The notes beneath the pieces were generated by a model. The model was not told the DNA's origin and made no database searches. It saw only the letters and a program-made list of their open reading frames with translations. From an uncultured Eggerthellaceae bacterium (GTDB lineage Bacteria > Actinomycetota > Coriobacteriia > Coriobacteriales > Eggerthellaceae), in the NCBI GenBank assembly GCA_944321455.1, contig CALULI010000006.1, forward strand, positions 310,001 to 374,000: DNA of 64,000 bases. The letters run 5' to 3'. Numbering within the stretch: position 1 is the stretch's first letter; every line of letters starts with the position of its first letter. Made by a program: the position numbers and the translations under genes. Of this stretch, positions 49,066 to 52,553 are shown one piece after another.

Positions 49066-49737
49066 TTACAAGGCTCGTATCACGTTACGAGCACTTACTA
49101 GCATATCAGTATTGGCAGCTAAAATTAGCTGATCTCCCGGTTTGAGATAGGTATTCTCTCCCACCACTTCCGTGTCATCATGGCGAGAAACGGCAACAAG
49201 GCGAATGCCGTCTTCAAATTCAATGTCGAAGGCACGCACCCCTTGTTCGTTGTCGTGGTTGCGCATGCGCGGCACGGTCACTTCGATCAAGCCAACTTCG
49301 TCGTTGGTCATGGCAATAGCAACACTCATAGAACCCAGCATGGCTTCTTCCTGAATCAAGCGGGCAATAAGCGCCGTTGAAGAAATACTTTCAATGCCTA
49401 AGCGCCTAAAGATGCGCAGGTTCTTCGGGTTGTTAACGCGGGCCACGCAGCGCTGCACTGAAAAGACGCGCGTCGCAATTTCGCAGGCCGCCAAATTGTC
49501 TTCGTCTTGACCCGTGACCGCTACAAAAATATCAGCCTGCTGAACGCCCGCATCTTCCTGGATGCTCACCTCACAACCATCACCGCAGATGGTTAGCAGC
49601 TGCCCTTCCAAAGTCTCAGACAAGTGCTGGGCAATATCGTTGCCTTCTTCAATCAGGACAACCTGATGATCTTCGCGCAGAAGCGTTTGGGCCAGATATT
49701 CGCCAACCTTACCGCCACCAACAATTACGATATACAC
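49066..49737 (-). CDS. TrkA/KtrA-type potassium uptake regulator (second)
   Basis: A 223-aa cytosolic regulator of a Trk or Ktr potassium channel. An RCK-N Rossmann domain starts 'YIVIVGGGKVGEYLAQTLL' with the nucleotide-binding GxGxxG, and 'DIFVAVTGQDEDNLAACEIA'; a C-terminal RCK-C domain follows ('FEDGIRLVAVSRHDDTEVVG', 'LKPGDQLILAANTDM'). It follows the other TrkA-like gene by 10 bp. The membrane channel subunit (TrkH/KtrB) is not in the window. NAD(H) or ATP binding at the N-domain and c-di-AMP binding at the C-domain are known for relatives. Confidence 0.92.
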   Translation of the reverse strand: MYIVIVGGGKVGEYLAQTLLREDHQVVLIEEGNDIAQHLSETLEGQLLTICGDGCEVSIQEDAGVQQADIFVAVTGQDEDNLAACEIATRVFSVQRCVARVNNPKNLRIFRRLGIESISSTALIARLIQEEAMLGSMSVAIAMTNDEVGLIEVTVPRMRNHDNEQGVRAFDIEFEDGIRLVAVSRHDDTEVVGENTYLKPGDQLILAANTDMLVSARNVIRAL

Positions 49738-49747
49738 AAGCTGCCTC

Positions 49748-50410
49748 CTAGTTCTGCATATACTTTGCCAGCGAAGGCAAAAGATCGTGACGGACAGTTG
49801 CTAAAACGGCATCACCTTGGTAGAGCACGCTTGATGATGATGGAATGGAATTGATGCTGCCATCGGCGCGCTCAAACGCGCAGATGCGAATGCCGTGGTG
49901 GCGCTCAAGGTCGCTCACCTTAATGCAGTCAGTATTCTCCCCCGAAAGGTCAAGCGCAAACTGGACCACTTCATAGTCACCGAAGGTAGCAACGTGATCC
50001 CCAACGCCTGAAGTAATTTTCGAAAAGATTTCTTCAGCCACCAGCGCAGTGCCGCACACATAGTCAATGCCCAAGCGCAAGTAGGCGCGTTCGTGGCCGG
50101 TGTTGTACAGGCGCGCAATAACATTAGGAACATCGTAGAGGCGGCGAGCAATTTCGACCACCATCAGATTGGCATTGTCGCTTTGGGTAACGGCTGCAAC
50201 CACGTCGCAGTCTTCAATGCCTGCTTTGATGAGCACTTCTTCGTCATACCCAACGCCTGCGAAGGTGGAGCCATTGAAATCGCGCCCCAGCGAAGCAAAC
50301 GCGGCAGGATTTTTATCAATCATGCAGACGTTATTGTCATCAGAATTGGAAAGCATGGTTGCCAAACGTGAACCAACGCGTCCGCATCCCACAATAATGA
50401 TGTTGCTCAT
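49748..50410 (-). CDS. TrkA/KtrA-type potassium uptake regulator (first)
   Basis: A 220-aa protein of the same plan as its downstream neighbour: 'NIIIVGCGRVGSRLATMLSN' and 'CDVVAAVTQSDNANLMVVEI' (RCK-N), then 'IKVSDLERHHGIRICAFERA' and 'VLYQGDAVLATVRHDLL' (RCK-C). The two proteins are clearly related but diverged, so this is an old duplication. They may form a hetero-octameric ring under one channel. Confidence 0.92.
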   Translation of the reverse strand: MSNIIIVGCGRVGSRLATMLSNSDDNNVCMIDKNPAAFASLGRDFNGSTFAGVGYDEEVLIKAGIEDCDVVAAVTQSDNANLMVVEIARRLYDVPNVIARLYNTGHERAYLRLGIDYVCGTALVAEEIFSKITSGVGDHVATFGDYEVVQFALDLSGENTDCIKVSDLERHHGIRICAFERADGSINSIPSSSSVLYQGDAVLATVRHDLLPSLAKYMQN

Positions 50411-50519: not shown

Positions 50520-51272
50520 TTACAGGAAGCGATATGAAACCGTACGTACTCCCCATTCATCAGGTGTTGAAGCACCAAAGGCTTTGTAAACACCAGGTGC
50601 TAAGTCAAGTGAGCGACCATAACCAGCAAACCCACCCGTGTCAGTAACCGTTGCAATAACCACCTTACCGTCATAGCAAATTTCCACGATGCTGCCCAAC
50701 AAATAAGACTGGCTAGCAGGCACCGCTACCGTAACGCTTGAAGAAGTAAGGGCAATACCCGATGCCGTAACATCAACGCCGAAATTACCCGCACCATCAT
50801 CATTTGTTGTGATGTTGTAGGCCGACGCAGACCCACTTGACCAGGTACCATCGTTAACGTCTGGCGCAACACGAGGTGCGGTAGGCAAAGGATCAAGTGT
50901 GCATACCTGTGCTGCTTTTTCAATTGCTGTTGGATTGCTTGAGTCAATGGCAACAGGCACTACAACAGGATCAGGATCGTTCACGGTAATGGAGCGCTTT
51001 GCGGATTCTGTTGCGTCAACCGCCTCAGAAATAGCCTGTTCTGATGTTTTTGAATCAGACACAGAAGCAATACGTGTTGCAGAATCCATAGAAGACTGGC
51101 TGGATTGGTTTTGTCCCACACCAATTGTGGAAGAGTCAACCTCTCCTGAGCCTTGTGCCTGACCTACGGTAAACACCAGCAAGCAAGCGCACATTGCAAG
51201 CACCATAGCAACGAAAACAAAAATCTTTGCTGAGCTACGATGAGCACGTTTATGTGTTTTGGCTGAAGCCAA
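50520..51272 (-). CDS. Secreted double-psi beta-barrel (RlpA/3D-like) cell-wall protein
   Basis: A 250-aa protein. I choose the TTG at 51272 because GGAGG lies 4 nt upstream and the product then starts with a basic tail (ASAKTHKRAHRSS) and a signal/anchor helix 'AKIFVFVAMVLAMCACLLVF'. A Ser/Thr-rich linker of about 110 residues leads to the C-terminal barrel: 'SGSASAYNITTNDDGAGNFG', 'VTASGIALTSSSVTVAVP', 'VIATVTDTGGFAGYGRSLDL', 'VYKAFGASTPDEWGVRTVSY'. The Asp in 'TDTGG' and the 'LDL' motif are typical of such barrels, which bind or cleave peptidoglycan. A long leader precedes it. Confidence 0.75.
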   Translation of the reverse strand: MASAKTHKRAHRSSAKIFVFVAMVLAMCACLLVFTVGQAQGSGEVDSSTIGVGQNQSSQSSMDSATRIASVSDSKTSEQAISEAVDATESAKRSITVNDPDPVVVPVAIDSSNPTAIEKAAQVCTLDPLPTAPRVAPDVNDGTWSSGSASAYNITTNDDGAGNFGVDVTASGIALTSSSVTVAVPASQSYLLGSIVEICYDGKVVIATVTDTGGFAGYGRSLDLAPGVYKAFGASTPDEWGVRTVSYRFL

Positions 51273-51496
51273 AAAACCTCCAAAATACACGCTTAACAAG
51301 AAGAAAAGAGGTCCATAAAAGACCTGATTAGAAGGCCCTCAGACAAGGGCACCATACGTTGAAACCACACAGAACACCATCTCAGGCGAATCTTACAAAA
51401 GGCTTCACACAAGTTCTTGTAAGCTATCTTTTCGCAGTTGGTGAGTGTGTTAAGGATACATTTACTGCGACTTTCATGCGCTTTCGCGCAGTAGCT
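51273..51496 (-). promoter_or_regulatory. Structured leader of the double-psi barrel gene
   Basis: Roughly 220 nt lie between the promoter and the start codon. On the minus strand they hold GCGC-GAAA-GCGC (51489-51478) competing with TACTGCG/CGCAGTA (51493-51463), CTTACAA/TTGTAAG (51423-51392), GCCCT/AGGGC (51350-51335) and a small AGGTC/GACCT hairpin followed by CTTTTCTT (51325-51302) that resembles an attenuator. A 17-codon frame (51477-51424) could be a leader peptide. I could not match a known riboswitch. Confidence 0.45.
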
Positions 51497-51524
51497 ATTA
51501 TACCGTACAAGCAGCTGAGGGCAA
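51497..51524 (-). promoter_or_regulatory. Promoter of the double-psi barrel gene
   Basis: On the minus strand TTGCCC (51524-51519), 16-bp spacer, TATAAT (51502-51497). A second candidate lies upstream: TTGTTT, 16 bp, TATAAT (51598-51593), at the end of the PspC gene. Confidence 0.6.
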
Positions 51525-51593: not shown

Positions 51594-52499
51594 TTATACG
51601 GCTCCCATCGGGGCAAACAAAAAGTTATGGTGAGTATATGGTGCTCCGCCCAAAAGGTAGGAAAAGAAGTGGATTTCACCAAGCGTACATAAACAAGCAA
51701 TCAAGGTTAAAACAACGGTCACCACGAACAAGGTATCCTCTTTGCAGACGAGTGCCGTAATAAAAACAAAGAACGAAGCAATCCAGAGCAAGCTTGGCAC
51801 AGGACCCGTTTTGCCCAGCACGTCAAAGGGAATTTCCAGCAGCGTAAACCCTAAAAAGTACAGACAAAGCTCTATGCACAAGATGAAGCCGCACACACGA
51901 ATAGGCAGTGCCCACCGATGCAGCGGTACCACCAACACCACAATGCCTAACACCACAAACGCGATGGGAATAAATTGGATCAACTCCAGATCGGGTACCC
52001 TCCCCACCATGTTGTTGGCAAACATACTAAACAGAAGAATCAACAGAATTGCTAAGAAAAAGGCAATCAGCACAGGATGCTGTTTCTGCTTTGCTGAATC
52101 TTCTTTGATGGGAGTTGGCTCTGCCACACCTGGGGTAGACGATGTTTGAACATTCAACGGCGGCTGGGGCGGAACATGGCCAGCGCCAGCAAACACGCCG
52201 TGTTGAGCCTGTGCGCTCGATTGCGCGGGCGTGTTTACCACATGCGTGTATTTGTCTGATTGGACATCCAAGGGGTCTACATCTACAAGCGAATCACGCG
52301 GAGCGGCATACGAAGGCAGCACTGCCCACATGATGACGTAGGGAATAACCGCAATGCCCAGCGTGAAAATGCCTAAAATTATGGCCGCTACGCGGATGAG
52401 AATGCTGTCCATATCAACGTAATCAGCAATACCAGCACAAACCCCGCCAAACAAGGCGTTGTCTTCGTTTCTTGCTAATGTCCGTTTTTGCTTTACCAC
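51594..52499 (-). CDS. PspC-domain membrane protein
   Basis: A 301-aa protein. The GTG at 52499 is preferred (AAGGGAA 6 nt upstream, product VKQKRTLARNEDNALFGGVC), since PspC proteins normally begin just before this motif; an ATG at 52526 with AAGGTG upstream is possible. 'GGVCAGIADYVDMDSILIRV' is the PspC signature, followed by membrane helix 'AAIILGIFTLGIAVIPYVIM'. After a Pro/Gln-rich linker come about five more helices ('LIAFFLAILLILLFSMFA', 'FIPIAFVVLGIVVLVVPL' and others). PspC relatives sense envelope stress. It lies downstream of two PH-domain membrane genes. Confidence 0.82.
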   Translation of the reverse strand: MVKQKRTLARNEDNALFGGVCAGIADYVDMDSILIRVAAIILGIFTLGIAVIPYVIMWAVLPSYAAPRDSLVDVDPLDVQSDKYTHVVNTPAQSSAQAQHGVFAGAGHVPPQPPLNVQTSSTPGVAEPTPIKEDSAKQKQHPVLIAFFLAILLILLFSMFANNMVGRVPDLELIQFIPIAFVVLGIVVLVVPLHRWALPIRVCGFILCIELCLYFLGFTLLEIPFDVLGKTGPVPSLLWIASFFVFITALVCKEDTLFVVTVVLTLIACLCTLGEIHFFSYLLGGAPYTHHNFLFAPMGAV

Positions 52500-52503
52500 G
52501 CAA

Positions 52504-52553
52504 ATTCCCTTCTGCCCTGAGGTCATTAAACACCTTAAAAGGCAGAAGGGAAT
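52504..52553 (-). promoter_or_regulatory. 13-bp inverted repeat over the pspC-type ribosome site
   Basis: On the minus strand ATTCCCTTCTGCC (52553-52541) pairs perfectly with GGCAGAAGGGAAT (52516-52504), 24-nt loop. The second arm contains the AAGGGAA that precedes the GTG start at 52499. The ATG alternative lies in the loop. Confidence 0.6.

Follow-up and report, generated by a model that had tools for sequence, protein, structure and literature searches.

A conserved RNA hairpin, apparently of an undescribed type, occurs in the Eggerthellaceae in the leaders of two kinds of genes, namely the division gene divIC and a predicted cell-wall gene lying beside trkA genes. We propose that it is a cis-acting element whose loop is bound by a trans-acting protein that gates the translation of DivIC, a reading to which we assign a probability of about 0.55. 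The copy before divIC would be the main one, and the wall gene of the window (the whole stretch of 64,000 nucleotides analyzed, G000:C6:310001-374000) would carry a looser copy. If true, an essential-type division gene of gut Coriobacteriia (relatives of Eggerthella, Gordonibacter and Slackia) has a conserved leader RNA, in bacteria whose gene regulation has, to our knowledge, been little studied.

The locus and the leader of its wall gene

The source genome (1.55 Mb) belongs to the Eggerthellaceae of the class Coriobacteriia, as do the relatives with which it was compared. On the minus strand, a gene for a PspC-domain protein comes first, followed by the leader, the gene for a membrane-anchored protein, two TrkA genes and the gene for an adenylosuccinate lyase (Table 1). 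The TrkA neighborhood described in the original prediction is thus present, with a TrkA_N domain recognized by Pfam in the next gene downstream. The Pfam search recovered no match for the wall-gene product itself. The DPBB_1 profile (PF03330) matches six of 14 relatives weakly (best E 0.0012), and the structure model (mean pLDDT 75.4) shows one long helix (residues 23-45) and, at the C-terminus, a barrel that Foldseek groups with expansins and the papain inhibitor SPI. The product is therefore a predicted membrane-anchored double-psi beta-barrel (DPBB) protein of the expansin/RlpA-like kind. Its start codon is TTG (51272-51270), after GGAGG. The palindrome that spans this codon is similar in the congeners L004 and L006 and could damp initiation.

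Table 1. Features of the wall-gene locus, in window coordinates
Feature	Position	Strand	Basis
Promoter-like site: TTGCCC, 16 nt, TATAAT (-10 at 51502-51497), 10/12 consensus matches	51497..51524	-	
5'-terminal 5-bp hairpin with GAAA tetraloop (UGCGC-GAAA-GCGCA), window only	51477..51490	-	sequence, predicted fold
Conserved hairpin: arms UCGCAGU (51470-51464) and ACUGCGA (51438-51432), 25-nt G-poor loop AAAUGUAUCCUUAACACACUCACCA (51463-51439)	51432..51470	-	
Shine-Dalgarno GGAGG of wall gene, unpaired with conserved hairpin	51277..51281	-	
Palindrome UUUUGGCU-UC-AGCCAAAA across TTG start codon of wall gene	51257..51274	-	by eye
Wall gene (membrane-anchored, C-terminal double-psi beta-barrel, expansin/RlpA-like)	50520..51272	-	start from alignment of relatives
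TrkA-type K+ transport regulator, next gene downstream	49748..50410	-	Pfam TrkA_N
Second TrkA-type gene	49066..49737		
PspC-domain membrane protein, neighbor upstream	51594..52526	-	Pfam PspC

The promoter and the leader of about 220 nt that had been claimed for this gene are borne out. Transcription probably starts near 51490, giving a leader of ~218 nt, and by eye all 19 orthologue leaders have a -10 at the corresponding position, TATAAT in 14 and TAAAAT or TACAAT in five. The count of promoter-like sites in the region (2 versus 1.9 expected) does not exceed chance. Several other signals read from the same DNA are not supported. The overall folding of the 221-nt leader does not rise above shuffles, with a z of -1.34 and 15 of 200 shuffles equally or more stable. 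The small terminator-like hairpin has no counterpart by eye in the orthologue leaders, terminator-like sites in the region are near chance (4 versus 2.1 expected), and no conserved G+C-rich stem with a U tract, as in a terminator-type attenuator, was found between the leader and the gene. The 17-codon frame (ATG 51477 to TAG 51424) overlaps the conserved hairpin and has no Shine-Dalgarno (SD) sequence in front; nothing alike appears among the short frames compiled for five relatives, and the leader does not show what a uORF attenuator would require, a short frame that is conserved and has a ribosome-binding site to itself. When the leader DNA was compared across 40 relatives (its own genome among them), one congener matched, over just 31 nt around the ribosome-binding site.

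A conserved hairpin in the wall-gene leaders

What does recur in the 19 orthologue leaders is a hairpin soon after the -10, in which a stem with changing letters closes a G-poor loop of 21-27 nt. A fixed criterion, set after hairpins had been seen, finds it in 12 of the 19 leaders against 0.43 expected from dinucleotide shuffles. By eye it is present in 14, the additional ones being L006, with a single mismatch, and L014, whose loop contains three G, and absent from L005, L009, L010, L013 and L035, one of which belongs to the same genus. Its distance from the -10 ranges from 18 to 37 in 14 wall-gene leaders. In an alignment of 11 wall-gene leaders 98.5% of the cells are paired, with the covariation chiefly at the outer pair. 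The original prediction had noticed a leader element without picking out this hairpin (51470-51432), and conservation holds for the hairpin and fails for the leader as a whole. Longer DPBB paralogues at 12 loci were considered and set aside: ten have a coiled-coil start and by eye lack such a leader, and the start is unclear in two (L020 and L021).

The window copy has a degenerate first loop repeat, and 5% of the shuffles of this leader yield a hairpin of the kind. Together with the five orthologue leaders that lack it, these observations would suit a scenario in which the divIC element described below is real and the hairpin of the window is nonfunctional, either a decayed copy or a chance resemblance. 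We regard this as distinctly unlikely, given that two of three congeners (L004 and L006) retain a hairpin built alike with other letters in its stem, that 14 orthologue leaders carry the hairpin by eye, and that additional trk-locus leaders are seen in G005 and G020. In the window, the hairpin ends at 51432 and the SD (51281-51277) lies ~150 nt further downstream, outside the stem. Hence, SD occlusion is inapplicable to this copy, and any effect of it must concern stability or transcript fate.

The leader of the window also stands apart from the known classes of regulatory RNA, in keeping with its earlier description as an unclassified element before a cell-wall gene. The Rfam covariance search that had been suggested assigns it to no known class: Rfam 15 at the gathering threshold gives no family at the leader in a search of the whole window, nor at eight related element loci, and at E up to 10 the leader draws four matches, all far below that threshold. 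The c-di-AMP riboswitch (ydaO-yuaA, RF00379) sits in leaders of wall-related genes in actinobacteria and has a large, multi-helix fold. The leader position, the cell-wall gene and the adjoining TrkA genes all recall it, and had led to the idea of a c-di-AMP riboswitch here. However, a covariance search of the entire genome for RF00379 found no match, the same search being positive in two control genomes, and the conserved part of the leader is a single small hairpin with a G-poor loop of 20-27 nt. Such an open-loop hairpin would leave little room for an aptamer, and we consider a riboswitch for c-di-AMP or any other small molecule highly improbable.

The same hairpin precedes divIC

Three covariance models were used: R1, trained on 11 wall-gene leaders only (L014 omitted); R2, from divIC leaders; and R3, a joint model from alignment A7, which was fitted to the R1 structure. 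The divIC leader of the window genome is a training row in R2 and R3, and its wall-gene leader in R1 and R3. Alignment A4 omits L148, L150, L143 and L162, and A5 omits L150 and L162; the registers of A5 and A6 were set by hand. At E 0.05, R1 matches 17 of 138 family genomes, ten of these being training genomes. In the seven others, five matches lie directly before a gene common to all five; the remaining two are an orphan copy and a match over coding DNA. Since chance alone would yield about seven matches at this threshold, it is the shared location that counts and not the number. The gene behind that location codes for the septum formation initiator DivIC (PF04977, E 2.7e-12, in a congener).

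Run on 44 loci (153 kb, both strands), R1 gives 31 matches. Wall-gene leaders account for 13 (of 14 present), divIC leaders for 17 (of 29) and the orphan copy for one, with no off-site match anywhere in the 153 kb. The 17 divIC loci include the five that first revealed the link, and the match at L160 has a shifted 5' arm. On the divIC leader of the window genome, R1 alone reaches only E 0.96, at rank 3. The window's wall-gene hairpin scores E 2.2e-4 with R1 and 0.0011 with R3, the copy being included in both training sets, and R3 finds the divIC leader of this genome, likewise a training row, at E 7.1e-7. A third R3 match in the genome (C2:89660, E 0.118) lies in or antisense to coding sequence and was taken as chance, as was a match of the same sort in G022 (E 0.0015).

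R2 at E 0.5 matches 48 of the 138 family genomes and picks up few wall-gene leaders. The N-terminus of DivIC follows in 29 of the 32 R2 loci read, with a CTG start in L178 and L192, and was not recognized downstream of L185, L193 and L195. Taking instead the divIC loci of the family recovered by protein search (n=30), 20 are positive with R2, 21 with R3 and 25 with the two together, counts in which many of the divIC leaders come from congeners. In all 25, the element lies 3-15 nt ahead of the start codon of a DivIC-sized frame. Among the five negatives, L153 has almost no upstream DNA and L148 carries the element by eye.

Anatomy of the element before divIC

The element is built of a stem of ~4-11 bp and a G-poor, A/C-rich loop of 20-27 nt. 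In 19 hand-registered divIC leaders it comprises 11 pairs in two helices with 89.5% of the cells paired. Nine of the 11 pairs have changed on both sides, with 21 such cells versus 5.1 in shuffles, and all shuffles and slid controls are lower on every covariation measure. The basal helix pairs the mRNA 5' end with the SD. As the registers had been chosen by hand, the SD-pairing test was rerun with a floating register on 25 divIC leaders (one placeholder row, G012, having been removed beforehand). The mean helix score was 13.2 versus 9.3 for shuffled arms, the top of 300 simulated means being 10.9, and 11 of the 25 leaders are below p 0.05 singly. SD pairing is thus kept by covariation in the divIC copies, as expected of an SD-occluding leader hairpin. 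By single-sequence folding most divIC leaders are no better than shuffled ones. Pseudoknots of the loop with the SD or with the leader, sought by eye, are possible in single species and inconsistent among them, and were dropped.

The basal stem starts a median of 7 nt past an extended -10 (5-9 nt in 27 of 28 leaders). This spacing suggests that divIC transcription starts at the first base of the element. With the element also lying just before the start codon, the 5' UTR of divIC would consist of little more than the element. The start codon is TTG, GTG or CTG, and not ATG, in 24 of 27 cases.

The loop of the divIC leaders carries two conserved AAAC-rich repeats (AAACRMAC-like), ~11 nt apart. 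Across 21 genera-level leaders, its first nine letters hold 4.9 bits and its last eleven 6.1 bits beyond composition, against at most 2.0 and 2.4 bits in 1000 within-loop shuffles; the consensus of these two segments is AAACAAACC and AAACGAACCAC. The G content is 5.1% in the wall-gene loops and 5.9% in those of divIC (orphan included). A passive design for low expression, with a hairpin that shields the 5' end and occludes the SD and an A/C-rich loop that acts as a ribosome standby site, would need no specific factor. It would account for the 5' end lying within the basal stem, the weak start codons and the 5-6% G of the loop. Nevertheless, the loop sequence is conserved far past composition and the same loop is retained before wall genes, where in the window the SD is far off, which makes a passive design somewhat unlikely.

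Distribution, and an orphan copy

Of 396 genomes of the class Coriobacteriia, R2 has matches in 31, of which 29 belong to the Eggerthellaceae. The two outside have E values of 0.03-0.04, and the match in the one that was read is not at divIC. In divIC leaders of other families (15 loci read in all), family f9 has the same loop on an unrelated 7-bp stem, UUCAGGC/GCCUGAA (R3 E 0.015), f3 has the loop only (R3 E 0.62), and f4 (G035) perhaps has it, as judged by eye; in the remaining families, where several starts are uncertain, the loop was not seen. At the trk locus, R3 finds untrained copies before other secreted-protein genes in G005 (E 0.109) and G020 (E 0.07). In L222 and L226, the secreted wall protein of this locus has been swapped between genera and a leader hairpin of the same type retained.

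The spacing of the direct repeats, close to one helical turn, and their position near the -10 raise the alternative that they are a DNA operator, bound just past the promoter by an OmpR-family regulator of the WalR/MtrA type. Response regulators of this type control wall genes, and the targets here are wall and division genes. When 24 genomes were searched with a degenerate pattern of the repeats alone, 59 matches were obtained versus 31 in the reversed control, the single recognized one being at divIC in G025. Against an operator, the flanking arms remain complementary as their letters change, the G-depleted strand is the mRNA strand in every leader read, the hairpin stands at varying distances from the -10 in the wall-gene leaders, and in family f9 the loop is retained on a stem that is entirely different. 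On balance, we hold an operator to be unlikely.

The orphan copy (L224, G058:C86:17189-17226, minus strand) has a TATAAT and an SD-like GGAGGG that is paired in the basal stem. It has no frame behind it and a terminator-like stem downstream, and is a candidate decoy RNA; the same genome also has a normal copy before divIC. Plasmids searched with the orphan copy gave no match, and an exact-pattern search of viral contigs gave none to the element.

Proposed mechanism

That the loop is conserved, that it recurs ahead of a second family of genes and that an orphan copy exists all point to a trans-acting factor. To such a factor, the RNA loop that we favor would offer paired AAACRMAC-like sites ~11 nt apart. 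The first base of the element would also be that of the divIC mRNA, whose 5' end would pair with the SD; the start codon, in most cases TTG or GTG, would come ~8 nt further on. With the SD sequestered by the mRNA 5' end, translation of divIC should remain low until the stem opens. A dimeric or two-domain protein that binds single-stranded RNA could bind the loop and shift the balance between the closed and open states, and KH proteins of the KhpA/KhpB type are candidates for this role. In the leader of the trkA-linked wall gene, this loop and the upper part of the stem stand near the promoter, where binding would affect the life of the mRNA or the fate of the transcript. As the same hairpin precedes the wall gene and divIC, one factor may set both genes together, and the common element would tie wall loosening to division. 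The transcription starts, the binding protein, the direction of control, the physiological signal and the function of the window copy are the parts of this scheme that we infer. A more elaborate variant, which we consider very unlikely, has the long Arg/Ser-rich cytoplasmic tail of DivIC itself (or a KH partner) binding both repeats of the loop, in the divIC mRNA as well as in the expansin-like mRNA linked to trk. Such a feedback would link division with wall loosening. A membrane division protein would control, and perhaps localize, the messages by which the septum is built and opened, with the orphan as a decoy RNA.

Relation to known systems

SD-occluding leader hairpins are a known general class. 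The divIC element resembles them in that its basal stem pairs the SD, and differs in that occlusion is by the mRNA 5' end itself and the stem is capped by a conserved loop with two repeats. The hairpin would thus work like known SD-occluding leaders and apparently belongs to none of the families tested. The KH protein family affects division through unclear sites; if the factor is a KH protein, the element gives that family a defined RNA target. The loop common to divIC and the wall-loosening gene predicts a shared RNA-binding factor that should be retrievable with the hairpin as bait.

EloR/KhpA of Streptococcus pneumoniae are reported as putative binders of mRNA 5' UTRs, including that of the division gene ftsA (PMC6403258), and loss of khpB in Lactococcus gives smaller cells and more secretion of wall-degrading enzymes (PMC12542702). 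The system of KhpA and KhpB (EloR/Jag) at ftsA is alike as a proposed RNA-binding control of a division-gene leader. However, it concerns a different gene, and the passages considered from these two papers neither define an RNA hairpin nor describe the element. The literature searched holds no description of it either. The terms Eggerthella, Coriobacter and divIC do not occur in PMC8632094 and PMC8040213, and PMC2864571 names only Collinsella-1.

The DivIC proteins

DivIC/FtsB (PF04977) proteins encoded by the second target gene are distinguished here by a long Arg/Ser-rich cytoplasmic N-terminus in addition to the RNA leader. In the window genome (L135, G000:C4:235330-235379 and downstream), this N-terminus extends for 320 residues before the membrane helix, with 18% Arg and 20% Ser. 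Four others examined are similar, the range over the five being 13-18% Arg. Two divIC frames, G022:C1:457946-458908 (L156) and G056:C3:1383-1730, contain one internal TGA, which could reflect sequence error, decay or recoding.
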